DNA of 64,000 nucleotides, taken from contig NZ_CP022121.1 in the NCBI RefSeq assembly GCF_002224645.1, positions 2,944,501-3,008,500 on the forward strand. Direction: 5' to 3'. The DNA comes from Dehalobacterium formicoaceticum. GTDB lineage: Bacteria; Bacillota; Dehalobacteriia; Dehalobacteriales; Dehalobacteriaceae. Both the position numbers and the translations under genes were made by a program. The notes under the pieces are model-generated. The model searched no databases. It saw only the letters and a program-made list of their open reading frames with translations, and was not told where the DNA came from. Positions 9,895-60,145 of the stretch are shown in pieces. How positions within the stretch are numbered: position 1 is the stretch's first letter; every line of letters begins with the position of its first letter.

Positions 9895-10138
9895 GTAAAA
9901 TTCCAATCCTCCATTTCAGCTGTTAAGAAAAACCGATTTCTATTTATTATAATTATAACAAAAAAAGCAGCCGGAAGCACTTATGCTATCTGAATGTATT
10001 ACCCCTTGTAAAAGATGGATAATAGTGATAGATTTTTAAATGAAAAATAATTAATTATAACTTAGCACAAGTCGATATTTATAAATGATACTAACATATT
10101 GGCAGGCCGCAAAATATTGTAGAAGGCAGGAAGAAAAA

Positions 10139-28647: not shown

Positions 28648-29841
28648 ATGAAAATGCTTTTGCCATTAACCACAATACTTCTATGCATCTCCATGCTCAT
28701 CTTCCCGAAAGAAACCCTGGCAGCAGCCACCATGGGGTTGGAAACCTGGTGGACCATTGTCTTACCTGCCTTACTGCCTTTTTTTATTATGGCAGAGCTT
28801 TTCTTAGGGTTGGGCGTTGTGCATTTTATCAGTATCCTCCTGGAACCTATAATGCGCCCTATTTTTAATCTGCCAGGCTCTGCTGCCTTTGTTGTGGCCT
28901 TAGGCTATTCCTCCGGTTTTCCCGTGGGCGCATCTTTGACTACCAAGCTTCGCAATCAGCACCTATGTACCCGAATTGAAGGGGAACGCTTGATATCTTT
29001 TACCAATAACGCCAGCCCCCTTTTTATTTTTGTCGCAGTATCTGTAGGAATTTTTCAAAATCCGGCATTAGGACTGCTCCTTGCCACCGCCCATTATCTC
29101 TCCAATTTATGCCTGGGCTTTCTGCTGAGATTCTACGGTGCCGATGATCCGGAGAAGATCCCTGGAAAAATCAATTATGATCATCTGATCAGTAAAAGTT
29201 TCCAAGCTATGTTTGAAGCCCAAAAAAAGGATGGCCGCTCTTTAGGTAAACTCCTATCGGATGCCATCAGCAAATCCATTCAAAGTTTGTTAACTATCGG
29301 CGGATTCATTGTCCTCTTTGCCGTGATTATAGCTGTTTTGGGAACTTCAGGCATCCGTCAGTATTTGGAAATAATTCTGGCTTTGATTTTTTCTCCTTTA
29401 CATTTTCCTGACCCCTTAATTACGGCCCTTTCCGGAGGTCTCTTCGAAATGACCCTGGGCGTAAAAATGGTCGGAGAATGCAGTGCCGCCCTCCCCCTGC
29501 AAATCATTGCCGTGAGCATGATTATGGGATGGGGGGGCCTCAGCATTCAGGCCCAAGTCATGGGTATCATCAGCGACTCGGACCTGCGTTTTTTCCCTTT
29601 TTTTCTCACCCGGATTGCTCATATGCTACTAGCAGGATTATTTACCTATGTATTAATCCAAAGCCAGGTTATGGGTGTGGTAAATATGATGTTTGTTCCT
29701 AAGATTCCCCACCATCCGCTCTTATATGTCCTCATTCCCTGGGGACTTTGTTTGGCTTCACCTTTATGGTCCATAATGGTTGCTTTCTTTTGGATTTTAG
29801 TTTTTAATATCAGAGATAGGTTAAAAAAGTTTAAATTTTAG
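28648..29841 (+). CDS. ylbJ: Sporulation integral membrane protein YlbJ
   Basis: A 397-residue polytopic protein of the nucleoside-recognition/YlbJ type, ATG preceded by AGGTGAT. Signature parts: LETWWTIVLPALLPFFIMAE, YSSGFPVGASLTTKL and TNNASPLFIFVAVSVG. It is needed in Bacillus for spore maturation under sigma-E control. It lies opposite a coiled-coil gene and rsmD, as in related genomes. Stop TAG, with TAA three codons later. Confidence 0.9.
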   Translation: MKMLLPLTTILLCISMLIFPKETLAAATMGLETWWTIVLPALLPFFIMAELFLGLGVVHFISILLEPIMRPIFNLPGSAAFVVALGYSSGFPVGASLTTKLRNQHLCTRIEGERLISFTNNASPLFIFVAVSVGIFQNPALGLLLATAHYLSNLCLGFLLRFYGADDPEKIPGKINYDHLISKSFQAMFEAQKKDGRSLGKLLSDAISKSIQSLLTIGGFIVLFAVIIAVLGTSGIRQYLEIILALIFSPLHFPDPLITALSGGLFEMTLGVKMVGECSAALPLQIIAVSMIMGWGGLSIQAQVMGIISDSDLRFFPFFLTRIAHMLLAGLFTYVLIQSQVMGVVNMMFVPKIPHHPLLYVLIPWGLCLASPLWSIMVAFFWILVFNIRDRLKKFKF

Positions 29842-31689: not shown

Positions 31690-34401
31690 TTAGCTTGGAT
31701 GTGCTGAAAGGTAAGGATTTCCCTGCTCCAACTGGGGAGGTATGAAATTGATTTCATTAATGCGACTTTTGTCCGGCATGAAATCCTCACTCATATCGGA
31801 TCTCTTTTCGATCAATTTTTGCAGGATGTCAAAAACATGCTGAAAATTTTCATAAAACAAAACAATCAAATCTCCCGGAAGAGCCTCTTCGACAGCGATT
31901 TGTAATGATTCTGTCTCGGAAGGCACCACGCTGATCTCTCCTTCATCTCCCCCGCCCTCCATGATTCCCTGATACAAAAGATGGGCCACCTCGCCAGGCG
32001 CTCTTTGGCGCAGATCCCGGTCTTCTCTGATATAGATTTTTGAAAATACTCGGCCTGCAATCTTTCCTGCTTCAATAATATTTTCATCCATTCTGTCACC
32101 GGGCATGCCGATAATGCCCACTGCCCTTTCGGTACCAATATATGGGATTAATTGCCCGACAGCTTCATAAGCGGAGATGTTATGTCCATAATCCAACATC
32201 ACTTTACAATCACCCAGATCAAAAAGATTAAATCGTCCCGGATTGGTGTTCACATCCGGGTGAAAGGACCTGAGTCCCATGGCAATGATGTGCTCGGATA
32301 TATTTAGAGCGTAGAGGGCGGAAACAGCTGCCAGGGCATTTTCAATGTTGCATTTGGAGCTTCCTCCAAAGGTAATGGGAATTTCCGGCACAGAAATAAG
32401 AGGTATCTTTTTTCCATCCTGATCAAGAACGATCATCTGATCCATAACCATTACAGCCTGGCCGCCTTTTTGCACATGGTTTTTGATCAGATCATTATCA
32501 TGATTTTGGGAAAAGTAAATAATCTTACCGTGAATTCGTTTCGCAAAATAAGGGGTCATAGGATCATCTGCATTCAAGACAGCACAGCCTCCGGGTTTAA
32601 TGGCTTCAATGACCAGAGACTTGGCAAAGGCCAGATCTTCCAGGGTATCAATGCCGTCTTGCCCCCGATGATCATCACTCACATTAATAATGACACCCAC
32701 ATCAGCCAAATCATAGCCTAGCCCTCGCCGCACAATGCCGCCACGGGCAGTTTCCAGCACCGCCGCTTCCACCTCCCGGTTGGAGAGCACTAGTTGAGCG
32801 CTCATAGGTCCGGTATTGTCCCCCATGGAGATACATTTTCCTCCGATATAAGTGCCTTGAGTACAGGTCATCCCCACCCTTTTGCCCGTTAAGGATAAAA
32901 CATGTTTTAATAAACGGGTGACTGTGGTTTTCCCGTTGGTACCGGTGACTGAGATGATGGGAATGGTTACGTCCTCACCCTGGGGATACAGGAAGTCAAT
33001 GATCTCCTGACCCACATCCCGGGAGGACCCGAAAGTAGGAAAAAGGTGCATTCTTAAGCCCGGCCCGGCATTTACCTCCACAATCGCACCCTTTCCTTCT
33101 TGAAGGGGCCGGGCAATATCAGCCATCACAAAATCAATGCCGGCAATCTCTAGACCAATAATTTTTGCTGCCCGCACTGCGATTTCCTGATTGACCGGAT
33201 GAACTTCTGCCGTACAATCCCGGGCAGTTCCCCCGGTGCTGATGTTGCCGTTTTCTCTTAAAGCAATTACTTCCGACTTTCCGGGAATATCATTTTCGGA
33301 AAGTCCATTTTTATGCAAAAAATGTTTGGCGACATGATCCAATTTAATTTTTGTCAAGGGTTTTTCATGACCTACTCCTCTTTGCACATTGCGGTTTTCC
33401 CTATGCACCAATTCTTTAATGGAATGGATTCCATCCCCCGTCACAAAAGGAGGCTTTCTTTCTGATGCTGCCACAACCCGGTCACCCACCACCAAAACCC
33501 GGAAATCATTCCCGGAAATAAACCGTTCTACGATTAAGGCCGTGCTGTATTTCGCTGCAGCACGATAAGCGCTTCTCAGCTGATTTTCATCACGAATATT
33601 CAGGCTCACTCCCCGACCTTGATTCCCGTCAAAAGGTTTGAGCGCTAAAGGATATCCTAAAGCCTTTCCTGTTGCAAGAGCTTCTTCCTCATCATAGACA
33701 ATCCTTCCTTCCGGCACGGGAATACCATAAGCGCCCAGCATTTGCTTTGTCAAATCCTTGTTTTTTGCAATATCAGTAGCCAGACAGCTGGTTCCGTCAG
33801 GAAGGGAAGCTTGAATCAAGCGCATTTTATTGCCATAGCTTAATTGCAGCAAGCTTTCATGACCCAGCCGCCGGACAGGAATTTTTCTTTTTTCTGCTGC
33901 CTGATAAATGGCTTTGGTGCTTGGCCCCAGGGCGGTTTCTGCGGCCAGCCTTTTAATCTTTTCCAGCTGTGCCTTAGTAGAGACGGATTCATTATGAGCC
34001 AGGCAGGAGATAATTTCAACAGCTGCATAGCCGCAAGCTAACCCGATTTCTTCATCCATATATTCATAAATGATATGATACAAAGAGGGGTTTTCTGCCC
34101 ATCTCGTTTTGCCGAAATAAACATCAAAACCAGCCATGGATTGTAATTCAAGGGTTAAATGCTCCGCCACATGGCAGACATAGGTTCCTTCCTTTAACCG
34201 GGTGACAAAACCGCCTTCATAGCCAAGAGAGCAATAATGTTTTTTCAGCCCGGGAAAATTGCTCAGCAATTGCTCATTAAATCCTGACAGATCTTTTGTC
34301 GGAATATCTGATAATGCTCCTGCATCTACCAAAAGCTTGATTACCGGCTTATGGCAATAGATATTTCGTCCCCGGTAGATATGCTGTTCTTTAATGTCCA
34401 A
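31690..34401 (-). CDS. cphA: Cyanophycin synthetase
   Basis: A 903-residue protein, TTG start after AGGAGG. It has the N-terminal domain, an ATP-grasp domain (about 220-480: PLALKPFDGNQGRGVSLNI, VEVNAGPGLRMH), and a Mur-ligase domain with P-loop VTGTNGKTTVTRLL near 484-497 and ARGGIVRRGLGYD. This order is specific to CphA, which adds Asp to the polymer backbone and Arg to each side chain with ATP. Last gene of an iadA-cphB-cphA operon, so polymer synthesis and breakdown are encoded together. Confidence 0.95.
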   Translation of the reverse strand: MDIKEQHIYRGRNIYCHKPVIKLLVDAGALSDIPTKDLSGFNEQLLSNFPGLKKHYCSLGYEGGFVTRLKEGTYVCHVAEHLTLELQSMAGFDVYFGKTRWAENPSLYHIIYEYMDEEIGLACGYAAVEIISCLAHNESVSTKAQLEKIKRLAAETALGPSTKAIYQAAEKRKIPVRRLGHESLLQLSYGNKMRLIQASLPDGTSCLATDIAKNKDLTKQMLGAYGIPVPEGRIVYDEEEALATGKALGYPLALKPFDGNQGRGVSLNIRDENQLRSAYRAAAKYSTALIVERFISGNDFRVLVVGDRVVAASERKPPFVTGDGIHSIKELVHRENRNVQRGVGHEKPLTKIKLDHVAKHFLHKNGLSENDIPGKSEVIALRENGNISTGGTARDCTAEVHPVNQEIAVRAAKIIGLEIAGIDFVMADIARPLQEGKGAIVEVNAGPGLRMHLFPTFGSSRDVGQEIIDFLYPQGEDVTIPIISVTGTNGKTTVTRLLKHVLSLTGKRVGMTCTQGTYIGGKCISMGDNTGPMSAQLVLSNREVEAAVLETARGGIVRRGLGYDLADVGVIINVSDDHRGQDGIDTLEDLAFAKSLVIEAIKPGGCAVLNADDPMTPYFAKRIHGKIIYFSQNHDNDLIKNHVQKGGQAVMVMDQMIVLDQDGKKIPLISVPEIPITFGGSSKCNIENALAAVSALYALNISEHIIAMGLRSFHPDVNTNPGRFNLFDLGDCKVMLDYGHNISAYEAVGQLIPYIGTERAVGIIGMPGDRMDENIIEAGKIAGRVFSKIYIREDRDLRQRAPGEVAHLLYQGIMEGGGDEGEISVVPSETESLQIAVEEALPGDLIVLFYENFQHVFDILQKLIEKRSDMSEDFMPDKSRINEINFIPPQLEQGNPYLSAHPS

Positions 34402-34445
34402 TCTAAAGTCCTCCTATTAGCTTCTATTGCTGCCCATGGAATCTA

Positions 34446-35252
34446 TCAATGCAATCTCATAACTTCCCTCTTCTTTAAATCAAAACCATAGCCCTGGGAT
34501 AAAACATGGACGGTCACATTGGTGATGGTCAAGATTTCATCCGGCTTCGATTCCGATACATTTGAGCTTTTGATCGATTTTCCGTCGATAACCGTGACCG
34601 CATTGTTGCCGATCACCTTAAAATGATCATCAGCATAGACACGAATTGCAGTATCTTCATCAATCCCAATCCCTAAAATGCCGGGATTTTCTGCGACACC
34701 GCAGAGCAGACGGCCAAATCTTCCCCTTTGATCAAAATGCTGATCAATAATGACACCGTCCAGAAAATTAAAACCCGGGGCCATTTTCAGAGTACACTTG
34801 CGCGCCGGATCGTTATTATTCCCTTCCACAATCATGGTATTGCTCATCACAGAGGCTCCGGCACTGGTGCCGGCAATCACCGCTCCCCCTTGAAAAGCGT
34901 CATGCAAAGCTTCATACGTTCTTGTACCCGCTAAAATACTGGTAATTCTCAACTGATCCCCGCCGGTAAAAAAAATGCCCGAAGCTTGAGAAATTTGTTC
35001 TGCATGTTCTTCCATATTAGCTTCATCTCTGGTATTAATATCCATAATATCAATCTGTTTAACCCCCAAGCGGGAAAAAACTTTTTTGTATTCATCTCCT
35101 ATAGCCCCAGGTTCCTGAGTCGCTGTCGTGAATACGATCAAATGAGCATCATGGTCTCCGGCGATGGTCACAATCTCCTCCAAAATCTTCTTTTCCCCTT
35201 TTTTATCCTCAGCACCTCCAATGATGATCAGGTTTCCCTTGGTCTCACCCAT
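34446..35252 (-). CDS. cphB: Cyanophycinase
   Basis: A 268-residue S51 serine peptidase: IIGGAEDKKGEKKILEE, the catalytic Ser in IAGTSAGASVMS, and IDQHFDQRGRFGRL. It cuts cyanophycin to beta-Asp-Arg dipeptides. No signal peptide, so it works on cytoplasmic granules. Its start overlaps the end of iadA by eight bases, and cphA follows after 44 bases. Confidence 0.95.
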   Translation of the reverse strand: MGETKGNLIIIGGAEDKKGEKKILEEIVTIAGDHDAHLIVFTTATQEPGAIGDEYKKVFSRLGVKQIDIMDINTRDEANMEEHAEQISQASGIFFTGGDQLRITSILAGTRTYEALHDAFQGGAVIAGTSAGASVMSNTMIVEGNNNDPARKCTLKMAPGFNFLDGVIIDQHFDQRGRFGRLLCGVAENPGILGIGIDEDTAIRVYADDHFKVIGNNAVTVIDGKSIKSSNVSESKPDEILTITNVTVHVLSQGYGFDLKKREVMRLH

Positions 35253-36414
35253 GGCAGTCTCCCTCTTTTCTTCCGTCTATTTCAAAAGTACCTCTTTGCA
35301 CCAATTTTTGATCCTTCACTAAAAACTTCCCTCGGGCAAGAAGCAGCTCGATGGAGAAATCCTCTTCCCTCAGCACCAAAATATCAGCATCGCTTCCCGG
35401 TGCCAAAATGCCTTTCTGGGGAAATATTTTTAAATTCTTAGCCGGATTCATCGTCACCGTTTTTAATAACTGAGGGAAAGGGATTTTTCCTTCCCTTGCC
35501 ATCCGGCAAAAATCTTCAAACAGATCTGCCACCTGACCAATTTCCCATCCGTACCGTCCGGGTACACTTCCGTTCCCATCAGAGGTAATGGTCACCTGTT
35601 CTAAAGAAAGCTGATCTTTCATGATTCCGGCAAGGGCTGCCGGAACACTGACACCGTTCTTCTCCCCCGCTGTCAAATCGATGCGGCCTCCCTGAGACAA
35701 ATACTTAATCCCTTGATCGAAAAGATCCCGGGTGCGATTAATGTGGGTGGGCAGAAACATTTCCTTGGGAAAATCCGACTCCTTCAGGAGCTGAAAAAGA
35801 GGGTTCAAGCCTTCTTTTCCATCCCCCACATGAAGATGGACCAAACCTGCTTTTCCGCCCAGCATGCCCCCTCTTTTTGCTTCACCGGCTAATTTACGCA
35901 ACAACTCCACTGAAGGATAAGAAGATCGAAAATCAGAAATCGCAATCTCCCCGACACCTACGACTTTATCAATTAAGGCAATATCGGTGAGCACACTGCC
36001 CGTTAAGGTAGCCATAGGTGTACCGTAACTGCCGGAATAGATATAGGTAGAAATCCCCTCATTTTCCAAAGCCCTTGCTTTTGCCAACAGCCCGGCAATA
36101 CCTCTGGTAATACTGTCAAAACCCAAAACACCTACGACTGTTGTCACACCTGCCTGAATGATATTACTGAGCATGATCTCCGGTGTCCTGCTATGGGGTC
36201 CTTCTTCACCACCGCCTCCGACGATATGGACGTGTTGATCAATAAATCCCGGGACGGCAATACAGCCCCTGCAGGGAATCACCTCTATACCAGGTAACAG
36301 CGTCCCATTGATATCATCTTCGATGAAACCTATTTTATCAAAAATGATCAATATATCCTTTTTCCCTATATCACAGGGCGCAAAACAACGCACTTCTTTT
36401 AATAATTTAAACAC
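35245..36414 (-). CDS. iadA: Isoaspartyl dipeptidase
   Basis: About 389 residues from GTG 36414, five bases after AGGAGG; an ATG at 36441 lies upstream of that site. Amidohydrolase motifs: PGFIDQHVHIVGGGGEEG, VGEIAISDFRSS, HLHVGDG, LPTHINRT and ITSDGNGSVPG. It hydrolyses beta-Asp-Arg and similar isopeptides, the final step of cyanophycin use, and may also clear damaged isoaspartyl peptides. First gene of the cyanophycin operon. Confidence 0.93.
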   Translation of the reverse strand: MFKLLKEVRCFAPCDIGKKDILIIFDKIGFIEDDINGTLLPGIEVIPCRGCIAVPGFIDQHVHIVGGGGEEGPHSRTPEIMLSNIIQAGVTTVVGVLGFDSITRGIAGLLAKARALENEGISTYIYSGSYGTPMATLTGSVLTDIALIDKVVGVGEIAISDFRSSYPSVELLRKLAGEAKRGGMLGGKAGLVHLHVGDGKEGLNPLFQLLKESDFPKEMFLPTHINRTRDLFDQGIKYLSQGGRIDLTAGEKNGVSVPAALAGIMKDQLSLEQVTITSDGNGSVPGRYGWEIGQVADLFEDFCRMAREGKIPFPQLLKTVTMNPAKNLKIFPQKGILAPGSDADILVLREEDFSIELLLARGKFLVKDQKLVQRGTFEIDGRKEGDCHG

Positions 36415-36504
36415 AACGCCCTCCTGGGAATCCTTTCTCATATCCTTTAATATTTCACAGAAAAAAGAGGACTATTCTTTAAAAAATTACCAAGAAAATT
36501 AAAA

Positions 36505-42400: not shown

Positions 42401-43813
42401 TTATCCTTGTTGTGCCGCAGCAATAATACGATCAAATTCGGCATCAACTTCCGCACTAACCGGTGTCACAACATGTCTTGCTAAGATATCCTTGGCCATC
42501 TGACGCGCCTTTTCTTCGACAGTCTCCCCCTTTATTTCCCATTTCTCGAATGTGTTGCGATCACTCAGAATAGGCTGCCATAGCTCACCGGCACGTAAAG
42601 CTTTTCTGGTGTGTTTATGTTCCAGGAAGGTCATTCCTTGACTGATTACTTCACCGATCACTTTTACAGCCAGAGTATCCTCAGAAACAATAGGACCGCG
42701 GACCGTTCTCTGAATCACTGAAGATAACTCGTTATCCAAAACCAACATGGCAAAGCAAGAGGTCAAACAATTATCCAGGGATCCAGCAGCTGCTAAAATA
42801 TCAGTGCCAATCAAAGCAGGAAGCAAGGCATTATAGAGATGTTCATAAGAGCTTTGTGCATCGGCAATTTTCCCGGCGCCGGAATACCCGGTAGCGGTGG
42901 AAGGAATGCCGTAATGTCTGGCCATTTGAATAGAAGCTGCTGCTGCCAGTCCCATTTCCGGCATTGCCCACAGCCCCACACCGGAACTCATATCCATAAA
43001 TGTTACCCGAGGTGACATAATCACCGGGCTGCCTGGTTTGATTAATTGACTGGCGATTACGCCGGCCAAGATTTCCGCATTATGTTGGGCTACACAGCCA
43101 ACCAGTGTCATCGGCCCGGTGGCGCCCATCATCGGACAAGGAATAACACCCAAAGGCAGTCCTGATTCTACGATATCAATTAAAGCTTCCGCCGGATGGA
43201 ATCCATATTCCAAAGGACTGATGGGTGATACTTCAATATAAGCAAGAGGTTTTTCCTGCAATTCTTTTTTTCCACCGGCAGCAGCGGTTAATACCTCCAA
43301 AATCGATTTCATTTCATGGCTTGATTCAGCGCAAATGCGCAATGGCTTGGTAGAATTGCGCAGCATGGTCGCCGTTTCCACAGTAACAATAACGTCTTGG
43401 GATACATCCCGGGGGAAAACCGGCGAAACAAGATGGATAAATTCCAACCCGTCGGCCAGACGGCAAAAGTCTGCCAAATCTTGCACCATACAATCTCTTT
43501 TTTGATTCGTCTCCAAATCCATAATGGAAGGAGTGCCCACACAGGTCTGGGCATAAGCTTTGTTTTTACCAAACTCAACCACATTTTTTTCGTTACGGCC
43601 ATAAATATTGAAACTTCTCGGCGGGGTGCTCATCCCCCTGTCAATCACTTCCTGAGTAAAGAGAATTCTATCGCCCCTCTCTTGACAGCCATTGTCTAAA
43701 AGAAGCTTTTTGAATCGTTCAGATGTTGTCCGAATTCCGATGGTCTTCAAAATTTCCAAAGTTGCCTCATGAACCTGATCGAGTTCATTATCAGAAAAAT
43801 AGTCAAATCTCAT
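42401..43813 (-). CDS. MttB-superfamily methyltransferase without pyrrolysine
   Basis: A 470-residue protein, AGAGGTGG site. It is a full MttB homologue: FDYFSDNELDQVHEATLEIL at the start and GYSGAGKIADAQSSYEHLYN where the pyrrolysine enzyme has its UAG; here the aligned residue is a Ser or Gly and the frame is uninterrupted. Such homologues act on quaternary amines such as glycine betaine rather than trimethylamine, moving a methyl group to a corrinoid protein. The corrinoid protein gene is immediately upstream (30 bases). The substrate is not known. Confidence 0.88.
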   Translation of the reverse strand: MRFDYFSDNELDQVHEATLEILKTIGIRTTSERFKKLLLDNGCQERGDRILFTQEVIDRGMSTPPRSFNIYGRNEKNVVEFGKNKAYAQTCVGTPSIMDLETNQKRDCMVQDLADFCRLADGLEFIHLVSPVFPRDVSQDVIVTVETATMLRNSTKPLRICAESSHEMKSILEVLTAAAGGKKELQEKPLAYIEVSPISPLEYGFHPAEALIDIVESGLPLGVIPCPMMGATGPMTLVGCVAQHNAEILAGVIASQLIKPGSPVIMSPRVTFMDMSSGVGLWAMPEMGLAAAASIQMARHYGIPSTATGYSGAGKIADAQSSYEHLYNALLPALIGTDILAAAGSLDNCLTSCFAMLVLDNELSSVIQRTVRGPIVSEDTLAVKVIGEVISQGMTFLEHKHTRKALRAGELWQPILSDRNTFEKWEIKGETVEEKARQMAKDILARHVVTPVSAEVDAEFDRIIAAAQQG

Positions 43814-43843: not shown

Positions 43844-44488
43844 TTATCTACCAATGAATTTCTTGGCCACATCCACAGCGACTGTGGCATCTTCAGCATA
43901 TCCATCTGCACCAATCTGATCCGCCCATGCTTGATTGATCGGTGCACCCCCAATCATAACTTTGACATCCTTACGCAAACCTTCTTCTTGCAGCAATTCA
44001 ATGATTTCTTTTTGTCTGGCAACGGTAGTAGTTAGCAGTGCTGAAATTCCAATAATTTGCGGCTTGATTTCTTTGATTTTATCAATAAATTTTTGTGATG
44101 GCACATCGATACCTAAATCTACTACTTCAAAACCTGCGGTTTTTAACATCATAATGACAATGTTTTTCCCAATTTCGTGCAAATCACCTTGTACCGTACC
44201 CATCACAACCGTGCCGGCAGACTCACGATTGGCCCCGGCCAGCAATGGTTCAATTTTCTTAATTCCAGCTTCCATGGATTTTGCCCCCAGAAGCAAGTCA
44301 GGAAGATAGTATTTTCCTGCAGAAAAATATTCCCCAACAATTTCGATCCCTTTCGTTAAACCATCATTAATGATCGCTAACGGTTCTATTCCTTCGGAAA
44401 TGGCTTTATCAGTTAATACCTCTACCAGTTCTTGCTCTCCCTCTGTAACCGCTTCAGCTAGTTGTCGTAAAATTTCTTCTTGTGCCAT
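43844..44488 (-). CDS. Methyltransferase corrinoid protein (MttC-like)
   Basis: A 214-residue protein, AGGAGGG site. The helical N-domain is followed by a B12-binding domain with the cobalt-ligand motif DLHEIGK (about residue 103), then DLGIDVP, ISALLTTT and MIGGAPINQAWADQIGADGY. It carries the methyl group from its partner methyltransferase. It pairs with the non-pyrrolysine MttB homologue downstream; the region upstream is occupied by an mttB remnant rather than a clear promoter. Confidence 0.94.
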   Translation of the reverse strand: MAQEEILRQLAEAVTEGEQELVEVLTDKAISEGIEPLAIINDGLTKGIEIVGEYFSAGKYYLPDLLLGAKSMEAGIKKIEPLLAGANRESAGTVVMGTVQGDLHEIGKNIVIMMLKTAGFEVVDLGIDVPSQKFIDKIKEIKPQIIGISALLTTTVARQKEIIELLQEEGLRKDVKVMIGGAPINQAWADQIGADGYAEDATVAVDVAKKFIGR

Positions 44489-46188: not shown

Positions 46189-47589
46189 TCAATCATTCTT
46201 CATTTTAAATTCCAGCTTCTTTTTGAATTTTTCTACACAATTAATGGAAATCCCCAAAATTTCCGCTATACGGAATTTTGTCTGAATACCTACTCCAGCA
46301 TTAGGACGGCTTTGGGTAGTACCAATATTTAGTTCCTCGCGAAGATCTTTCATCACAGCGCAATCAGCAAGATCCTCAACGCTAACATGTAATTTCTCCG
46401 CAACAAATGCTTTCGCAGCATTTATTTTCATTCCTGCCATTTGCATCCGGAAAACCAGATCTCCTGCAGACCTTATTCCACCCATTCCTGCTACAGATTC
46501 GTGGGTAACAGCCATGCCGAAGGTATCTCCCGCACCTACCTACAATCCATCTACCTTTGCGATTTCAATCAGGGCTTTATCAACTCTGGAAACTGCATCG
46601 GTAGCTGGAATCAAAGATAGAGGAATACCTCCAACACCCATACCTACGTTGGCATGAACCGGGATACTAGAAACTTTCACCGTTTCCTTAGCAAAAGTGC
46701 AAACACGAGCCAAATTCCATGCTAAGGACATGCTGCTATTCGTATTCACCGCCATCCCAAAGATGGAAACACCGCATGCTTCTGCCATTTTTACCTGATT
46801 ATGAGGATATAGACCGGCAATTCTCTTTCCGTCAATCTCCAATTCTCCATGCATACCCATATTGAATTCACCGGCCATACCTGTTTCAAAACCAATATTA
46901 GGGTATTTTTGCCTCAAAATTCTGATAGCTTCTAAACTCGCTTTTACATCCGCATCCCCGGAAGCTCCCACTGTATCAAGGTTGATACCGTCAGCTCCAC
47001 TATCAATCATATTGGAAGCGACATAAACAATATCCTTTATTGCGTGCTCAATAGCTTCTTCCTGTGCTTCTCTCGCTTCTTCGATTTTACCAGCCGGCAG
47101 AAGTTCCGACCAGTTGCCCACTGGCCCATCAGGTTTGGTATAAAGACCCAGATTAGGCATCGCGCCATACAACAAAGGCAAAGTTGTCATCAGTTGAGCC
47201 TGCTCCATCGTCTGTTTTTCTTCACTAACAATCGCCTTAACCGGTTTGTAACTATAATCCACATGGCAAAGTTCAATACTATCAGAAGCTAATGCTCTTT
47301 CTTGTGTCAGAATGGCTTGTAGACGATCCATAGGTATTCCATTTCTGACAGGGAGTTTTAAAGTACCGGCATCGAAGGACACTACAACTTCATTACCTGG
47401 TTCTACGGAAACAATTTTCTGTGGGTTGGTGATTATTTCATAAAGATAATCCATCTCATCCTGCGTTAACGGAGGAATTTTACCCCGGTTTGCTGCATCC
47501 TGTGTACCGTTTTCAATATCTGACCTGATTTCTTCTCCAGTCAAAAAACCAGAATAGTTATCTCCATATCTGGTAAAATACTTTGTCAA
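46189..47589 (-). CDS. mtbB: Dimethylamine:corrinoid methyltransferase MtbB with in-frame UAG (pyrrolysine)
   Basis: The frame runs from TTG 47589 (AAAGGAG at proper distance) to TGA 46189, 466 residues when the TAG at 46540-46542 is read through as residue 350. Before it stands ALIEIAKVDGL, after it VGAGDTFGMAVTHESVAGMG; both sides belong to the MtbB family, whose archaeal members have pyrrolysine at this site (356 in Methanosarcina). Length fits the family. The methyl group of dimethylamine goes to the corrinoid protein MtbC encoded just upstream. Split reading would give two useless pieces. A ribosome site for a second start is lacking. Confidence 0.93.
46540..46542 (-). other. In-frame amber codon of mtbB, predicted pyrrolysine
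   Basis: TAG in the context GAT GGA TTG TAG GTA GGT GCG. Residues GL-Pyl-VGAGD match the MtbB active-site strand. Confidence 0.92.
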
Positions 47590-47785: not shown

Positions 47786-48433
47786 TTACTTAGTTGATAG
47801 AAGTTCCAATGCTTTGTTCACAGCTTCAGAGGCATCTTCACCATAGGCATCGGCGCCGATTCTATCGGCCCATCGTTGAGTGACCGGGGCACCGCCAACC
47901 ATTGTCATGATCTTTCCCTTTAAACTATTCTTTTTCAATTCGTCCTCCAGCTTTTTTTGTTCAACCATTGTCGTTGTCAATAATGCACTTGTTCCAATCA
48001 GGTCTGCATTCTCTTTTACTGCCACTTCGATAATTCTGCTCACAGGAACGTCTCTGCCAAGATCAATGATTTCAATACCTTGGGTTTTAACTAGAGATAT
48101 AACAATTCCTTTTCCAATATCATGAACATCTCCTTCAACTGTCGCAAAAACCATTTTTCCAATTTTTTCACTAGATTTTCCCTGCAACGCATCGTCAAAA
48201 ATTTTCGTGACTGTTTGCATCACACCAGCAGCCAGCATTAACTCCGGTAAAAACATCTCACCTCTTCCAAAAAGATCTCCCACTTGCTTGATCCCGACAC
48301 TAAAACCCTTCGTCAACACCTCAACAGGATTCAGTCCTTCTGACAGTGTCTGTTCTGCAAGCTGTACTGCCTTATCATTGTTGATTTTTAAAATTGACTC
48401 AATCGCTTCTTGAATAATTTGTTCTTTGGACAT
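47786..48433 (-). CDS. mtbC: Dimethylamine corrinoid protein MtbC
   Basis: A 215-residue protein with GAGGAGGG site. VEGDVHDIGKGIVISLVKT holds the DxHxxG cobalt-ligand motif; DLGRDVP, IGTSALLTTTMVEQKK and MVGGAPVTQRWADRIGADAY follow. It lies 196 bases upstream of mtbB in the same direction, and a sigma-54 promoter stands about 80 bases ahead of it. It would receive methyl groups from MtbB and pass them to a methyl-acceptor enzyme that is not in this window. Confidence 0.93.
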   Translation of the reverse strand: MSKEQIIQEAIESILKINNDKAVQLAEQTLSEGLNPVEVLTKGFSVGIKQVGDLFGRGEMFLPELMLAAGVMQTVTKIFDDALQGKSSEKIGKMVFATVEGDVHDIGKGIVISLVKTQGIEIIDLGRDVPVSRIIEVAVKENADLIGTSALLTTTMVEQKKLEDELKKNSLKGKIMTMVGGAPVTQRWADRIGADAYGEDASEAVNKALELLSTK

Positions 48434-48513: not shown

Positions 48514-48530
48514 AGCAAAAATCTTGCCAA
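48514..48530 (-). promoter_or_regulatory. Sigma-54 (-24/-12) promoter of mtbC-mtbB
   Basis: On the minus strand TTGGCAAGATTTTTGCT: GG and GC separated by ten bases, as in TGGCACG-N4-TTGCA/T. About 80 bases before the mtbC start. The sigma-54 activator gene lies at 54210-55949 on the same strand. Confidence 0.85.
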
Positions 48531-49000: not shown

Positions 49001-50470
49001 TTATTGATTATGATTCGAATCAAAGGAAGACGGCGTTTCATCAGGATTTTTTGTAGACCCTTGTGTAGTTATTATCGGGTTTCTGATCGCTTCAATAAAT
49101 ACCATCAGATTAAAACCTATAATAGATATAATAATTGGCCAAGCAATATAACCTGGTATATATGGAAGAAGCCAAGATACGACAAAAGTATATCCGGCAA
49201 TGATTAAAAGCAATGGACCAATAAATTTGACACAGAAATCCCACCATTTCCCGAATTTTATATCCGCTCCGATATTGAGAATATTCTCTCTGACATATGT
49301 TGCACCCCAGGCATATCCCACAAAAATGAAAATGAGAAAACCTCCAATCAAGATACCATAAGTTCCGATCGTGCTATCAATCCAATCATAAGTATTCTTA
49401 CTGAGACAAGAAGGCAAAGCAGCGATATTCCATAATATAAACAATGGAGGGATGATTTTTTTTCTTGTAATATTCCACTCCTCTATAAGTGATTTTACAA
49501 TTGCCTCAATGCAACCAATGGCAGCACAAAGTCCGGAAACCAAAAGAGCACCAAAAAACAAGATCATGAAAATGTGACCGTAAGGCATACCATGGAACAT
49601 CTCCGGTAAAACAAGAAAAGCCAAACTGGTACCGGAATCCAAAGGAACGTTGTATACAACACAAGCAGGAATAATCGCCAAACCGACAAACCAGGAAATT
49701 CCTCCGTCCAGCAAGGTTGTTTGAGTGATCGTTGAACCAACATCATCATACTTTTTCATATAGCTACCCATGGCAATCATAATACCCCAGCCAAAACATC
49801 CGGACCACAAGCCCTGTCCGATTGCTTGCATCCAAGTTTCCATTTGTATTAGGTAGCTCCAATCAGGGATCAGGTAATACTCTAATCCTTTCTCCACACC
49901 AGGTAAAAACAATGTCCGTACTACCATAATTGCCATGATCAGGAACAAAAGTGGACCCATGACACTAGTCACTTTTTCTATTCCATTATTCATGCCAAAC
50001 CATAATACACCAAAGACAATTATATTCACCATGATAGCCCAAATTATGACTTGCGGCGTATCAATAAAACTATTATAAAAAGCTTGGGGCGATTCAGCTA
50101 TCCATACGGACCCGGAAAAACTGGTCGCAAAGTATCGTAACACCCAAGAAATTAAAACGTTATAATAAACCATAACTATAAAGTTTAAACAAAGTAGCAC
50201 CCAACCGCAAATACGCCATATTTTTTTCTTTCCTATAGTCGTAAATGCGCCGACAACGGCCTTGCGTGAATATTTTCCCATACATACTTCGCATTGATTA
50301 CCTATGCTGACAATTAAAATTAAGGCGATGATATAGGCAACAACAAAAGCAGCGCCCCCATATTTTGCACATAAATACGGGAAGCGCCATATATTTCCTA
50401 ATCCCAAACTAGTCATAATAATGACGAGAAACCCGCTAAATCTGGAACTAAATGTTTCTCTTGTATCCAA
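49001..50470 (-). CDS. SNF-family Na+-dependent symporter
   Basis: A 489-residue protein from TTG 50470, after GAAGGGGG; longer readings run into the neighbour. Twelve or so membrane segments; ETFSSRFSGFLVIIMTSLGL and GLGNIWRFPYLCAKYGGAAF form the sodium and substrate site of the family. Placement among methylamine methyltransferase genes suggests uptake of a methylated amine or betaine, but this is inferred. Preceded by a small membrane partner. A second, truncated copy ends at 41939. Confidence 0.9.
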   Translation of the reverse strand: MDTRETFSSRFSGFLVIIMTSLGLGNIWRFPYLCAKYGGAAFVVAYIIALILIVSIGNQCEVCMGKYSRKAVVGAFTTIGKKKIWRICGWVLLCLNFIVMVYYNVLISWVLRYFATSFSGSVWIAESPQAFYNSFIDTPQVIIWAIMVNIIVFGVLWFGMNNGIEKVTSVMGPLLFLIMAIMVVRTLFLPGVEKGLEYYLIPDWSYLIQMETWMQAIGQGLWSGCFGWGIMIAMGSYMKKYDDVGSTITQTTLLDGGISWFVGLAIIPACVVYNVPLDSGTSLAFLVLPEMFHGMPYGHIFMILFFGALLVSGLCAAIGCIEAIVKSLIEEWNITRKKIIPPLFILWNIAALPSCLSKNTYDWIDSTIGTYGILIGGFLIFIFVGYAWGATYVRENILNIGADIKFGKWWDFCVKFIGPLLLIIAGYTFVVSWLLPYIPGYIAWPIIISIIGFNLMVFIEAIRNPIITTQGSTKNPDETPSSFDSNHNQ

Positions 50471-50499
50471 AACTAAGCCCCCCTTCTTGCTTTTGTTAT

Positions 50500-50742
50500 T
50501 TAAAGCCAATGGAGCACACCTTTGATTGTTCCCAAATGAATAAGCCAACTGGTACCAACACAAATAGCCATTATAATTATTATTTCCCATGTTTTTGAAA
50601 CCTTTATTTCTTCGTCCACGCTCACCGTCCACTGCTCTAATTCATTTCTTTCTACTTTGGGATTATGAATAAACAAACTTATTGGTGCGATCCATAAAAA
50701 GAACACGACGAAAACCAACCAAAACCATGCTGATCCAGTCAT
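50500..50742 (-). CDS. Small membrane accessory protein of the SNF symporter
   Basis: About 80 residues from ATG 50742 after TAGGAG. Two hydrophobic segments (AWFWLVFVVFFLWIAPISLF and IIIIMAICVGTSW) flank a soluble loop. It lies 29 bases upstream of the symporter, like the small subunits known for other bacterial SNF carriers (for example MetS). Role inferred from position. Confidence 0.6.
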   Translation of the reverse strand: MTGSAWFWLVFVVFFLWIAPISLFIHNPKVERNELEQWTVSVDEEIKVSKTWEIIIIMAICVGTSWLIHLGTIKGVLHWL

Positions 50743-50950: not shown

Positions 50951-51850
50951 TTATACAGTTGTTATCGGCGGCACGCTATCGATTTCTTTTTTGCTGAAGG
51001 CCGATTTAAACATGGAAATCGAAGTATATACCAATACGAAAATAACCAACCATTTTAAAGCATACAACGGTATTTCCTTTACGATATAGGCAGCAACAAA
51101 AATTCCTAAAAGTCCACCTAAAGGAATGGCAATATTAGATTTGTAATCATAAGAGTCTTCCTTTACAAATCGCATTCCAGCAACGGGAATTAAAAAGGCG
51201 CAAGAACCCATCATCAGGGGAAATGCAACCCGGGGGCTTAAACCCAAGGCATAGACTAAAGCCATCATCGGGGCAAAAATACCAATGCCAATGGTCATAA
51301 ATGCACCTAACAAAAAGGTCACGATGATCGCAACAATTAGCTTAGCACCACTCAGGCCAGTTGCCTCTCCCCCCGTAGGCATCAGTCCCAATTGCCCTGC
51401 CAGCATGAATAAAGCTACGATCAAAAGAGCAAATCCCATCCCAATTTGGATCTTTTTTTCCGGTAATTTCGCTACAATACCGGCACCAAAAAATGCACCA
51501 AGGGTGGAAGAAATAATAATCGAAAACAATGTTAATGGTTCCACATCGATAATTGTAATATAAATAAGCCCTTCAATAGCCGTTGGCAAAACGGTGCAAG
51601 TATTTAAAGTTCCCGGAATTAACCGATCAGACATTGTCTTGAATTTTTTGAAAATAGCGGTCAATGTCCCATACGACCCAATGCCAAGTGTATCAAAAAA
51701 CATGGTTATAACTCCAACAATTGAAAGAAAACTCCAGCTACCATTAGATCGCGCAATTTTTTCCTTTTTATTGGGTACACGTAGTAGAACATAACCAAAT
51801 GCTGCAGCAAAAGCAACAATACCTGCCTGAAGAATCGGCACTAAAGGCAT
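50951..51850 (-). CDS. TauE/SafE-family permease
   Basis: A 299-residue protein with about eight membrane segments and two repeats: FDTLGIGSYGTLTAIFKKFK and IFAPMMALVYALGLSPRVAF are the family's paired motifs. Members export or import sulfite, sulfoacetate and other organic anions. It lies 218 bases after mttB. A decayed copy is at about 45440-45660. Substrate unknown; in methylamine clusters it may handle a methylated compound. Confidence 0.87.
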   Translation of the reverse strand: MPLVPILQAGIVAFAAAFGYVLLRVPNKKEKIARSNGSWSFLSIVGVITMFFDTLGIGSYGTLTAIFKKFKTMSDRLIPGTLNTCTVLPTAIEGLIYITIIDVEPLTLFSIIISSTLGAFFGAGIVAKLPEKKIQIGMGFALLIVALFMLAGQLGLMPTGGEATGLSGAKLIVAIIVTFLLGAFMTIGIGIFAPMMALVYALGLSPRVAFPLMMGSCAFLIPVAGMRFVKEDSYDYKSNIAIPLGGLLGIFVAAYIVKEIPLYALKWLVIFVLVYTSISMFKSAFSKKEIDSVPPITTV

Positions 51851-52068: not shown

Positions 52069-53535
52069 TTAACTCCAATATTCCTTTTCAGCTTCTTCCA
52101 CAATAATGCGCATGGTTTCAGCCGCACCGGAGACCAAGGGATCTGGCTTATAGTTTTCCAAAATATGCTTCGCTTCATCATATGCTCTTTCTGTCATATC
52201 TTTTGCGCCATCGGCTAACCAGGAATCCCGCATTTTGCGGTCTATCAGTCTATTTTGAGATTGTTCTCGAAAATGTCGGTAAGTATGTTCATTGCTCACA
52301 AATTCACCACCAGCACCTACTTGCTCAATGACATTGACAGCTAATTCTTCCGAATTAACATTGATGCCCCCTACAGATTTCTTCACCATACGGGCAATTT
52401 CATTGTCTATCAATAGCTGCGCATAATCGAAAGTCATTCCCAATTCCAACATTCCTAACCCATAAATCAAATTGGCACCTGCCAATGCGGGTAAAATTGC
52501 TGTCAGGGTTTTTTCATGTGCAGCTTGTGCATCGGGAATCTTACTATCTGCCTATCCTCCGGCAACCCAACTAGGCAATAGATAATACTGCGCCATTTTT
52601 GCCACAGCGGCATTGATCATACCTAATTCAGGGCAGCCTACGGGAGAAGTAGTATGCTTCATGTCCATTATGGTGGTGGAACTTCCGTAAATAACAGGTG
52701 CTCCCTTTTTCGATAATTGACTAAGCACAATACCACCCAATACCTCAGCATTATGTGTGACCAGCGTGCCCGACAAAGTGACTGGAGATGTTCCCCCGGC
52801 AAGTGCCATAGAAAGAATATTCATGGGAATCCCTTCTCTGGCGCACTCAATAATGACATCAGTACTTTCCGGCACCAACTGTAGTGGGCTAACCGGACAA
52901 GTAATACAGCTGTAGATCGGTCTTTCTCTTAATTTATCCCGTCCTCCCACCACAGCGGAAGCCATGTCAATAATTTTGCGCAAATTTTCCACACCGCCGC
53001 AACCTTGAAATAGATGTTTGGAAGTATTAGTAAAATTGACTTCCACCTCATGAAGGGGCGCAACCTGTGCCGGAACATCCTGGGCCGATACTGCCCGTTC
53101 ATGAACATCAACACAATCAAGGGCATCACAGACTCTTGCAATATCACCCGTATCTTTTTTAGTGGTTTTTCGGTATTTTCTGGTATAAGGGTCGATAATC
53201 ATTACACCTTCACCAAAATTTGTAAAGCCAACCTTACTCCCTTCCAGTACGAAATCGTTTTTTGGATTACGTCCAGCCAAAAGCAAGGTTTTTGGTGCAC
53301 TCGCAATAGCATCTTCCACAAGATAGCCTGGAATTTTTACCATATTGTTCATGCGGTCCACAATGGCGCCTCCGCCATCATAAATATCCTGGGCTTCCTG
53401 ACTAAGAATTCTAATACCGGTATGCTGCAGCACATGCAATGTAGCACAATGAATGGCATACAGCTCATCATCGGACAACACATGCAAACCAAACCCGTTT
53501 AAAAGATTCTGTCCCGCATATGGATTAAAACCCAT
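52069..53535 (-). CDS. mttB: Trimethylamine:corrinoid methyltransferase MttB with in-frame UAG (pyrrolysine)
   Basis: ATG 53535 follows GGGAGGTG. The frame continues to TAA 52069, 488 residues when the TAG at 52552-52554 is residue 328. It stands between LLPSWVAGG and [16 protein letters not shown], matching the MttB active site, where Methanosarcina MttB has pyrrolysine 334. The rest is MttB throughout ([49 protein letters not shown]). It moves a methyl group from trimethylamine to a corrinoid protein. No intact corrinoid gene adjoins it; mtbC or the 43844 protein could serve. Probably transcribed from the sigma-54 promoter at 54028. Confidence 0.94.
52552..52554 (-). other. In-frame amber codon of mttB, predicted pyrrolysine
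   Basis: TAG in the context GCC GGA GGA TAG GCA GAT AGT, between AGG and ADSKIPDAQ. The equivalent codon in the non-pyrrolysine homologue at 42401-43813 is a sense codon. Confidence 0.93.
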
Positions 53536-54209: not shown

Positions 54210-55949
54210 TTACTTATTTAAGTTTTTTAAGATTTTAGCAACCGTTGATTGACTTACATCTAATGCATCTGCCGCCTTATATGTCGACTTATATAGATCA
54301 TAAGCTTTTTTTACCAAATGCACTTCTAGTTCACGTTTTGCCGATTTCCAAGGCATCAGTCCAGTGCAAATCACACGGCCGCGTGTTTCTCCTTCCACAG
54401 CTGGCAATAAGTTAAAATCTTCTTTTGTAATCAGATCAGAATCGCTATTTATGATTGCTTTCTCTACAGTATGCTCAAGTTCTCTAACGTTACCTGGCCA
54501 ATAATAATTAATTAATTCCTCAAAAACCTCTGGGGTAATTTTCTTATTGAATTTATATTTGTCATTGAATTTACCCAGAAAATACTCCAGAAAAACAGGT
54601 ATGTCATCCTTCCTGTCACGTAACGGTGCGATGTGCAAAGGAAATACATTCAAGCGATAATAGAGGTCTTTGCGAAAGGTACCCTTTATAACCATGTCAT
54701 GTAAATCACGATTTGTAGCCGCGATAACTCTGGTATCAATTTCGATTCTTTTGGTACCTCCAATACGTGTAATCTTTCTATCTTGCAGAAATTCCAGAAG
54801 TTTCACTTGAAGAAGCAATGGCATCTCACCAATTTCATCCAAGAATAGGGTAGAGTTATGCGCAAGCTCTATTTTCCCAAGCTTACCATTTTTATTCGCA
54901 CCGGTAAATGCACCGCTTTCATAACCGAATAGTTCCGATTCAATCAGGTTTTCCGGTATCAAACCACAGTTTATTTTTATGAGTGGATATTTGCTGCGCG
55001 CACTAAGATTATGCAATAATCGAACTACAACTTCCTTGCCTACACCGGATTCACCCTGAATCAAAACAGTTAGATCCGTATTGGCAATTTTAAGGAATTT
55101 CTCCTTAATTTCCTCTAATTGCTCATGGGAACAGACAAACTCTGTCTGCCGAAATAATGCTTCGCGCATTTTATCTATTTGTTGATTTTTTTCAATAATT
55201 TCCCTGCTTTGATTTTCTACTTTACTTTTCAAACTATTGATCTCATCCACATCTTTCGAAGTGCATATAACTCGTTTGATGTTGCCTTGCTCGTCAAAAG
55301 TAGGTACAGCCGTAGCTAATACTGTTTTTCCTGATTTTAGATGCTGCATCATATCTACTTTTTCTTTCTTTTGATATACCATTAATGAAATACTAGTTGA
55401 AATAATATTTTCTTTTTCTAAATCCCTGACATGTTTCCCCAAAAGATCTTTTTCTTTCACTCCATTCACAGTTTCAGCAGCAGGATTTAAATATAAAACA
55501 ATCCCGCCTCCATCAACAATTAACACTTCTTCGCCTAAATGGTGAAGAACACTTGCGTATTCATCTTTTTCTAGATTTCCGTGTTCGAAAAGCGCGGGAG
55601 CAGCCAGTTTCTTTAAGATTTTCAAACCATCTATAACGCCCACAGGCTGTTGCTCGCGGTCAACAACAACTGCCATATTCTGGTCTAAACGAGAAAGGGT
55701 TGTAACGTTATCCTGGTCGGATAAGACAGCAAAGTTTTCTTTGCTTTTAATATTATCCATAGTTCCGTTAGGACATGAAGAATAAGCCTCAATCAACTCC
55801 CATATTGTAAAGATATCTCTAATGCGATTCTTTTCCTTGACCACAATATAGGTCGCTCGTTGATCCATTGCAATTTTGTGAACGTTTTTTATAAATTCAT
55901 GACTCGTAACAGCAATGAAATTATTCTGAACGCATTCCCTTATCAGCAT
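54210..55949 (-). CDS. Sigma-54-dependent activator with CBS, PAS, AAA+ and HTH domains
   Basis: A 579-residue protein. Residues 1-115 form two CBS repeats (TYIVVKEKNRI, MAVVVDREQQPVGVIDG); 125-240 a PAS domain (VLIVDGGGIVLYLNPAAETV); 270-510 the AAA+ module with Walker A GESGVGKE (299-306), GAFTGA (346-351) for sigma-54 contact; and a Fis-like HTH at the end. CBS may sense adenosyl ligands, PAS a small molecule. No receiver domain. The two nearby -24/-12 promoters are the obvious targets. Confidence 0.93.
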   Translation of the reverse strand: MLIRECVQNNFIAVTSHEFIKNVHKIAMDQRATYIVVKEKNRIRDIFTIWELIEAYSSCPNGTMDNIKSKENFAVLSDQDNVTTLSRLDQNMAVVVDREQQPVGVIDGLKILKKLAAPALFEHGNLEKDEYASVLHHLGEEVLIVDGGGIVLYLNPAAETVNGVKEKDLLGKHVRDLEKENIISTSISLMVYQKKEKVDMMQHLKSGKTVLATAVPTFDEQGNIKRVICTSKDVDEINSLKSKVENQSREIIEKNQQIDKMREALFRQTEFVCSHEQLEEIKEKFLKIANTDLTVLIQGESGVGKEVVVRLLHNLSARSKYPLIKINCGLIPENLIESELFGYESGAFTGANKNGKLGKIELAHNSTLFLDEIGEMPLLLQVKLLEFLQDRKITRIGGTKRIEIDTRVIAATNRDLHDMVIKGTFRKDLYYRLNVFPLHIAPLRDRKDDIPVFLEYFLGKFNDKYKFNKKITPEVFEELINYYWPGNVRELEHTVEKAIINSDSDLITKEDFNLLPAVEGETRGRVICTGLMPWKSAKRELEVHLVKKAYDLYKSTYKAADALDVSQSTVAKILKNLNK

Positions 55950-58585: not shown

Positions 58586-60145
58586 ATGAAAAAAGAAGGT
58601 TATTTATTTGGAGCCATGATTCTTTTAATATCGAACTTTTTAATCAAGATCTTAGGCTTCTTATATCGGGTCATCCTGGTCAGGTTTCTTGGTGCGGAAG
58701 GCATTGGTTTAATCGAGATGGTCAATCCCTTTTATACCTTTATCTTGGTCCTGACAACCTGGGGTATCCCCTTGGCCATGTCAAAAATGATCGCTCAGGA
58801 AACAGCAGAAGGTAATTGGGGTAATATTAACAGAATTTTTCGTTTAACCCTCATCCTGTTAACCGCTTCCGGACTCATCACTACCACCCTGGTTATTTAT
58901 TTTGCCCCTGTGATCGTCAAACACTTTGTTCCGGACAGCCGCATTTATTATTGTTTTGTCACCATGATCCCTGCTATTTTCCTCGTTGCCGTCTGCTCCG
59001 TTTATCGTGCCTATTTTCAAGGTACAAAACAAATATCCGCCATTGGTTTCAGTCAGACCATTGAACAAATCATTCGGGTAATTGTGGGCCTGACCTTAAC
59101 CATTAAGCTTCGCAAATATGGTCTTGAAATTGCAGTGGTAGGTGTAGCTGTGGCATCAGTCGCGGGGGAATTAGGCGGTCTTCTTTTTATGTTGGCTAAG
59201 TATCATTGGCAAAAAAGAAGAAGCAAAGTTCTCCTTCCTGCTCCTGCAACAAGCAGCTCCCTCTCCATCCTGAAAGGGCTGTTTACCTTTGGCACCCCTG
59301 TGACATTAACCAGGCTCCTGTCCAGCACCCTCTTGACATTGGAAGCTTCTTTGATCCCCAGGGGATTGATTTTAGCAGGGAACAGTATGCGCACAGCGAC
59401 CGAGATCTATGGGCGTTATTCCGGCGTCGCGATGACGCTGCTCCATTTACCCAGTATCATTACCATGTCTTTGGCTGTATCTGTGATGCCTGCCGTAGCG
59501 GAGCTGTCGGCAGGAGGTCAGAAAAAGCTCCTGGAACATCGCATCACAGAATCCCTATGGATCACATCTGCCTTTACCATTCATAGCATGACCATCTTGT
59601 TTTTTTATGCCACAGAATTGTGCGGTTTGGTTTTTCATGCCCCGGAAGCGGGAGAAGCTTTGAAAGTTCTGGCTCTGGGCGGCCTCTTTTGCTATCTCCA
59701 GCAGACCATGAACAGTATTCTTCAGGGATTAGGACGCGTAAAAATGCTTCTTTTTAATAATTTATGTTCCGGACTATGTCTCATCCTGGGTATTTTGCTG
59801 CTCACACCTGTAAAGGGTCTGGAAATAAAAGGTGCAGCCATCGCGTTAAGTTTAAGCAATTTCACCGGCTGCACCTTAAATATTTTTTATTTGATGAAAT
59901 TCACGGGCATCGCATTACCCTTAAACAAAATCATTATCAAACCTATGATCTCAGGGATGATATCATTATCAGCACTGATGCTCTTGGATCATTGGCTCAG
60001 ACCGATCATCAATAATCTGCCTTTAACCATCCTGCTTCTGATTGGACTTACTTCCCTCTTATATTTTGGGATTCTTTTAATGATTGGCGGTTTGCCCCTT
60101 CATACTTTAAAAAGGCTGCCCTTTTTCAATAAATGGCTTTCCTAG
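58586..60145 (+). CDS. spoVB: Stage V sporulation protein B / polysaccharide flippase
   Basis: A 519-residue protein of the MVF/MATE flippase group with about 14 membrane segments. GFLYRVILVRFLGAEGIGLI and VSVMPAVAEL are typical SpoVB-type motifs. SpoVB is needed for spore cortex synthesis, most likely lipid-linked precursor export; other members handle cell-wall polymers. It is convergent with surE: the two TAG stop codons share the CTAG at 60142-60145. Confidence 0.85.
   Translation: MKKEGYLFGAMILLISNFLIKILGFLYRVILVRFLGAEGIGLIEMVNPFYTFILVLTTWGIPLAMSKMIAQETAEGNWGNINRIFRLTLILLTASGLITTTLVIYFAPVIVKHFVPDSRIYYCFVTMIPAIFLVAVCSVYRAYFQGTKQISAIGFSQTIEQIIRVIVGLTLTIKLRKYGLEIAVVGVAVASVAGELGGLLFMLAKYHWQKRRSKVLLPAPATSSSLSILKGLFTFGTPVTLTRLLSSTLLTLEASLIPRGLILAGNSMRTATEIYGRYSGVAMTLLHLPSIITMSLAVSVMPAVAELSAGGQKKLLEHRITESLWITSAFTIHSMTILFFYATELCGLVFHAPEAGEALKVLALGGLFCYLQQTMNSILQGLGRVKMLLFNNLCSGLCLILGILLLTPVKGLEIKGAAIALSLSNFTGCTLNIFYLMKFTGIALPLNKIIIKPMISGMISLSALMLLDHWLRPIINNLPLTILLLIGLTSLLYFGILLMIGGLPLHTLKRLPFFNKWLS

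Follow-up and report, generated by a model that had tools for sequence, protein, structure and literature searches.

How is the single in-frame UAG of an mttB-like gene in Dehalobacterium formicoaceticum read, and on what would the resulting enzyme act? The gene lies in a stretch of 64,000 nucleotides (bases 2,944,501-3,008,500), hereafter the window, from a genome that forms a single contig of 3,766,545 bases:

52069..53535, minus strand: mttB, trimethylamine:corrinoid methyltransferase, 488 codons, predicted to be read through one UAG

The frame opens with ATG, just 3′ of a good ribosome-binding site (AGGGAGGTG), and closes with TAA; its sole internal TAG is codon 328, at 52554-52552 on the minus strand. 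An earlier note on this DNA had the TAG and its coordinates (52552-52554) right but left the strand unsaid; the plus strand of 52069-53535 is non-coding, with a frame full of stops, and reads CTA at these three positions. The note's identification of the product as MttB is borne out by TIGR02369, the equivalog for MttB of the pyrrolysine (Pyl) type, which the product passes over the model's full 469 positions with 748.8 bits (cut-off 525), the top score of the genome, and by its alignment with the Methanosarcina barkeri enzyme. Residues 4-486 match PDB 7XCM/7XCL end to end (E ~1e-131), with 47.8% identity to chain 7XCM, the second highest among 60 MttB-family proteins, and UAG codon 328 aligns with Pyl334. 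The alignment to Methanosarcina and bacterial MttB that the note had proposed as a check places the TAG on Pyl334, and the same column holds the TAG in all amber MttBs examined. The note's placement of this residue on a "pyrrolysine strand" fails, as Pyl334 of MttB sits above the barrel, off any beta-strand, and the strand location is that of MtmB (PMC9842639). Taking the list of active-site residues from the same structure paper, we find Gly110, Met249, Tyr364 and Gly372 of M. barkeri MttB matched by G108, M243, Y358 and G366; Gly110 and Tyr364 are reportedly 100% conserved in Pyl-MttB (PMC9842639). Thr111 is replaced by Glu, the commonest residue at that position (15 of the 25 amber MttBs examined).

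We consider it very likely that the gene encodes an intact Pyl-MttB, in which UAG 328 would be decoded by tRNA-Pyl and which would demethylate trimethylamine via a corrinoid protein. Pyl-MttB is a known kind of enzyme, reported for D. formicoaceticum in general terms: PMC6778437 credits the species with pyrrolysine biosynthesis and with methylamine methyltransferases. The locus offers a clean, independently supported instance of bacterial genetic-code expansion in an environmentally relevant dichloromethane fermenter, and gene callers that stop at UAG will split mttB.

The gene stands in a minus-strand cluster whose order of transcription is sigma-54 activator, mttB, permease, small membrane protein, SNF transporter, corrinoid protein and mtbB, followed by another corrinoid protein and an MttB homologue that lacks Pyl:

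54210..55949, minus strand: sigma-54-dependent activator, PrdR-like (NF041552, 405.6 bits, under the equivalog cut-off of 795)
50951..51850, minus strand: predicted membrane permease that reads as TauE/SafE-like and matches no NCBIfam model
49001..50632, minus strand: sodium-dependent SNF-type transporter (NF037979, 91.2 bits against 50)
47786..48433, minus strand: corrinoid protein of the MtbC type, adjoining mtbB (TIGR02370, 222.8 bits against 215.3)
46189..47589, minus strand: mtbB, dimethylamine:corrinoid methyltransferase, TTG start (TIGR02368, 503 bits against 369)
43844..44488, minus strand: corrinoid protein, MttC candidate (TIGR02370, 231.9 bits, cut-off 215.3)
42401..43813, minus strand: non-Pyl MttB-superfamily methyltransferase (TIGR02369, 365.6 bits, under the cut-off of 525)

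The earlier note had also counted a second amber-containing gene in the cluster. Such a gene is present, but it is mtbB rather than mtmB, and its TAG lies about 6.0 kb away. This mtbB holds a single UAG at 46542-46540 in the context KVDGL-O-VGAGDTFG, scores 618 bits against PF09505 with one TAG, and matches PYLIS_2.

The partners of the two methyltransferases can be read from 'Ca. Formimonas warabiya' DCMF, which has the closest mttB orthologue (81% identity) in a cluster of the same type. Its gene order is mtbB-mtbC-regulator-MFS transporter-mttB-mttC-mttB2-pylB2-pylC2-methyltetrahydrofolate methyltransferase. The 47786-48433 product is 74% identical to the protein adjoining mtbB in DCMF. The 43844-44488 product is 78% identical to that of L077 11372-12013, directly after the DCMF mttB (9842-11302), and from the DCMF order mttB-mttC-mttB2 it is likely to be MttC; it is thus most likely the cognate partner of mttB, going by gene order and homology. 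The 42401-43813 gene, which has TCC (Ser) in the Pyl column, is 72% identical to the gene after mttC. The activator is 50% identical to the regulator of the DCMF cluster and likely regulates the methyltransferase cluster here, and the 49001-50632 transporter likely serves amine uptake, judging its substrate from gene position only. The transporters differ: MFS in DCMF, SNF and TauE-like in D. formicoaceticum, where decayed duplicates are present as well. The second pylB-pylC pair of DCMF (L077 13608-15897; 487 and 342 bits, over the cut-offs) follows directly after mttB-mttC-mttB2.

Four decayed pieces, all on the minus strand, lie among or beside the intact genes of the window: an mttB remnant at 45000-44648, in which a stop is present and the Pyl region has suffered a deletion; an mtbB remnant at 53859-53723; a tauE-like remnant at 45621-45418; and, at 42391-41945, the terminal 3′ part of an SNF transporter. 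They are what remains of a methylamine cluster that had been duplicated or rearranged earlier; the cluster has been reshuffled in this genome.

From these data we infer the decoding, the trimethylamine substrate, the corrinoid pairing and the control by the sigma-54 activator. tRNA-Pyl(CUA) would read UAG 328 as pyrrolysine, an amino acid that PylB, PylC and PylD would synthesize and that the split synthetase PylSc/PylSn would load onto the tRNA. Trimethylamine would add to the pyrroline ring of Pyl328 in the 488-residue enzyme, and one methyl group would pass to the Co(I) of the cognate corrinoid protein, most likely that of 43844-44488, before entering the Wood-Ljungdahl pathway by way of tetrahydrofolate. 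The leftover dimethylamine would go to MtbB (46189-47589, likewise with a UAG), and dimethylamine and monomethylamine would be handled by the Pyl enzymes MtbB and MtmB, in two copies each. We propose the MttB chemistry from the Methanosarcina enzyme and the tetrahydrofolate step from the acetogenic lifestyle.

The same protein could be made, with UAG read as Pyl, yet act mainly on some different methylated amine or on a related compound, having arisen by paralogous expansion. We regard this as unlikely, although several observations speak for it. Six Pyl-MttB paralogues with 38-61% mutual identity share the genome, and the species is known to grow on dichloromethane only (PMC10344839). DCMF has 23 genes for Pyl-containing methyltransferases (PMC6778437), and its metaproteome showed several Pyl-MttB proteins, seven of the superfamily in all (PMC9768040), yet trimethylamine gave no growth (PMC8163858); the substrate may therefore differ between Pyl-MttB paralogues, and a possible new role for the DCMF proteins has been suggested (PMC9768040). 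Against this, the window mttB is the genome's best TIGR02369 scorer, is among the closest of the 60 proteins to M. barkeri MttB, retains the substrate-pocket residues of the structure paper, and is clustered with mtbB, its DCMF orthologue adjoining mttC. Trimethylamine stays our preferred substrate for this copy. Pyl-type genes number ten in D. formicoaceticum (six mttB, two mtbB and two mtmB), and why an organism whose growth is known on dichloromethane alone keeps all ten under purifying selection is a testable question. Two further MttB paralogues, considered as amber-bearing, were rejected, their TAG being merely terminal, a few codons ahead of the next stop. In a proteome paper on strain EZ94, pyrrolysine and MttB are absent from the main text.

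The reading of UAG itself is best judged from the decoding machinery. The earlier note held that its interpretation would fall with the loss of this machinery; pylT, pylSc, pylSn, pylB, pylC and pylD are all in the genome. The tRNA gene is as follows:

L020 16469-16540, minus strand: pylT, tRNA-Pyl with a CUA anticodon

PylSc scores 365 bits (cut-off 178), PylSn 141 (51), PylB 506 (348), PylC 459 (248) and PylD 238.5 (150). The genes pylT, pylSc, pylB, pylC and pylSn are grouped at 3.66 Mb (L020 12886-16540); pylD lies at 1.20 Mb (L083 6585-7307; G000 1204569-1205288), about 2.4 Mb along the contig. An ORF beside pylD reads by eye as formyltetrahydrofolate ligase, and in DCMF pylD is likewise distant from pylSc. 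The Pyl-MttB systems of Acetohalobium arabaticum and Bilophila (PMC7593587) share the UAG-encoded Pyl, the split PylSc/PylSn and PylBCD, but differ from D. formicoaceticum with its remote pylD and its six Pyl-MttB genes. Code expansion in Acetohalobium is reported to be induced. Among 398 genomes drawn evenly from the phylum, a TAG-bearing MttB over the cut-off occurs in 25 and PylS in 23, with both in 22 (hypergeometric P = 7e-32, for genomes that are mutually non-independent). Completeness is 61-89% in the three genomes that have MttB but no PylS and 83% in the single genome of the opposite kind; among those with an amber MttB and at least 90% completeness, PylS is found in 19 of 19.

Suppression of the UAG with a standard amino acid, by a near-cognate or suppressor tRNA, would leave the protein without pyrrolysine. 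This is very improbable given a tRNA-Pyl (CUA) with its dedicated synthetase in the genome and the company that amber MttBs keep with PylS across the phylum. What lends it some weight is that the site is occupied by Gln, Ile, Val, Leu or Trp in some relatives from inside the Pyl clade, proteins that may work as enzymes without pyrrolysine. In a maximum-likelihood tree built with the Pyl column removed, a single clade of amber MttBs was rejected (AU p = 5e-6); nested in the Pyl clade are the archaeal Pyl enzyme and three Pyl-less groups, whose residues at the Pyl site are:

L009: Gln; L044: Ile; L072: Val
L055: Leu; L068:1486-3121: Leu
L067:11702-13373: Trp

Support differs among these groups: the Leu group has starred branches, the Gln/Ile/Val group moderate values (85/92), and the Trp member weak ones (87/49) on a long branch. 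The simplest reading of the tree is one gain of Pyl followed by at least two, probably three, losses. The Pyl-less members retain Gly110, Met249 and Gly372, and also Tyr364 save in the Trp member, which has Phe. A tentative wider reading, which we rate as possible though short of probable, is that the Pyl-MttB clade of this bacterial family is diversifying rather than made up of redundant trimethylamine demethylases, with the six amber-bearing copies here (25 in the four genomes of the order) acting on different methylated compounds, and that Pyl has been replaced at least twice, probably three times, while most active-site residues around it were kept, so that Pyl would be losable without loss of the enzyme. 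What the Pyl-MttB paralogues and the Pyl-less relatives act on is a second testable question. His occupies the Pyl site in a further high-scoring MttB relative, L126 (G031), whose genome lacks PylS. Two other D. formicoaceticum genes, L033 and L034 (G000 2380194 and 1931837), are of the MtmB family, with no amber codon in either. A dichloromethane-induced non-Pyl MtmB protein has two D. formicoaceticum homologues (PMC9768040), an agreement in number with these genes.

For mttB of the window we return to pyrrolysine: UAG 328 is, on the comparative evidence, almost certainly read as such. The TAG occupies the identical aligned column in all six amber-bearing MttB genes of the genome, in 25 of 25 amber MttBs from four genomes of the order Dehalobacteriales, and in every amber MttB examined from the wider phylum and Desulfohalobiaceae; the single-protein scan of named genomes yielded only four relatives, and the wider survey was that of the 398. 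Protein identity to the DCMF orthologue is 82% on the 5′ side of the TAG and 77% on the 3′ side. Synonymous sites between these two genes are saturated. Over the orthologue pairs with a computable synonymous distance (five of seven on the 3′ side), dN/dS is 0.03-0.07 on either side of the TAG and about 0.04-0.07 on the 3′ side. Purifying selection acts on both sides of the codon and is strong in the part beyond the TAG. The shared column in paralogues and relatives together with this selection excludes a chance origin of the TAG, so that the earlier judgement that chance stop mutations are very unlikely holds.

A pseudogene, in which the TAG would be a plain nonsense mutation and the 3′ half would be decaying, might be suspected in a region strewn with decayed mttB, mtbB, tauE and transporter remnants, but is highly improbable here, where the amber paralogues and relatives hold the TAG at one column, the 3′ part is intact up to the TAA and selected, and the full Pyl machinery is in the genome. 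A sequencing or assembly error can be dismissed for practical purposes, given a single-contig genome and a TAG at the same place in the orthologue from another genus and in five paralogues here.

The codon has not been given over to pyrrolysine in this organism. Amber usage was measured on stretches of the genome; UAG terminates about 20% of the window genes (9 of ~45), for example 28648-29841, 23748-24938 and 58586-60145. With about one fifth of window genes ending in UAG, the codon would be both stop and Pyl in this cell, and decoding has to tolerate or limit read-through. After the UAG-ended genes a second stop usually follows 0-17 codons downstream, with one at 31.

Setting the protein against its best-characterized counterparts clarifies which features are shared. 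M. barkeri MttB (7XCL/7XCM/7XCN, PMC9842639) is alike in full-length identity (48%), Pyl position and Gly110/Met249/Tyr364/Gly372; in contrast, the protein here is bacterial, has Glu at the Thr111 position, and tetrahydrofolate, not coenzyme M, is the expected methyl acceptor after its corrinoid protein. The MtgB-type, non-Pyl members of the MttB superfamily (glycine betaine methyltransferase, 2QNE/9YCE) share the fold and the role as corrinoid methyltransferase, but are without Pyl and match the mttB product at 226 bits, against 443 for Pyl-MttB, when it is used as query against the PDB.

Next to the codon and ahead of the genes, three nucleic acid elements were located:

52455..52554, minus strand: match to Rfam PYLIS_3 (RF02510), just 3′ of the UAG, 84.9 bits
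54028..54043, minus strand: sigma-54 -24/-12-like site TGGCAAGATTATTGCA, upstream of mttB and the flanking mtbB remnant
48514..48529, minus strand: sigma-54-like site TGGCAAGATTTTTGCT, lying 80 bp 5′ of the corrinoid-mtbB pair

The PYLIS_3 segment is predicted to fold no better than its shuffles (z = +0.83), short of the stable hairpin looked for just downstream of the UAG. We therefore make no claim of a structural recoding signal at this place, and take the match as homology of the mttB coding sequence. TGGCAAGATTATTGCA and TGGCAAGATTTTTGCT are near-identical 16-mers, one ahead of each methyltransferase unit. A looser sigma-54 pattern shows no enrichment in the 64-kb window (31 found, 31.4 expected), and sigma-70-like sites are near expectation (9 against 7.0). 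In the D. formicoaceticum genome, several methyltransferase genes or the genes of their corrinoid partners are preceded, at a distance of about 80-490 bp, by sigma-54 -24/-12-like sites: the two of the window and those at L021 5141, L023 5425, L024 5043, L025 4984 and L028 6213. Common control of these operons is suggested, and only suggested, by these sites. Farther along the window, at 31690-36441 on the minus strand, three adjoining genes read by eye like cyanophycin synthetase, cyanophycinase and isoaspartyl dipeptidase.
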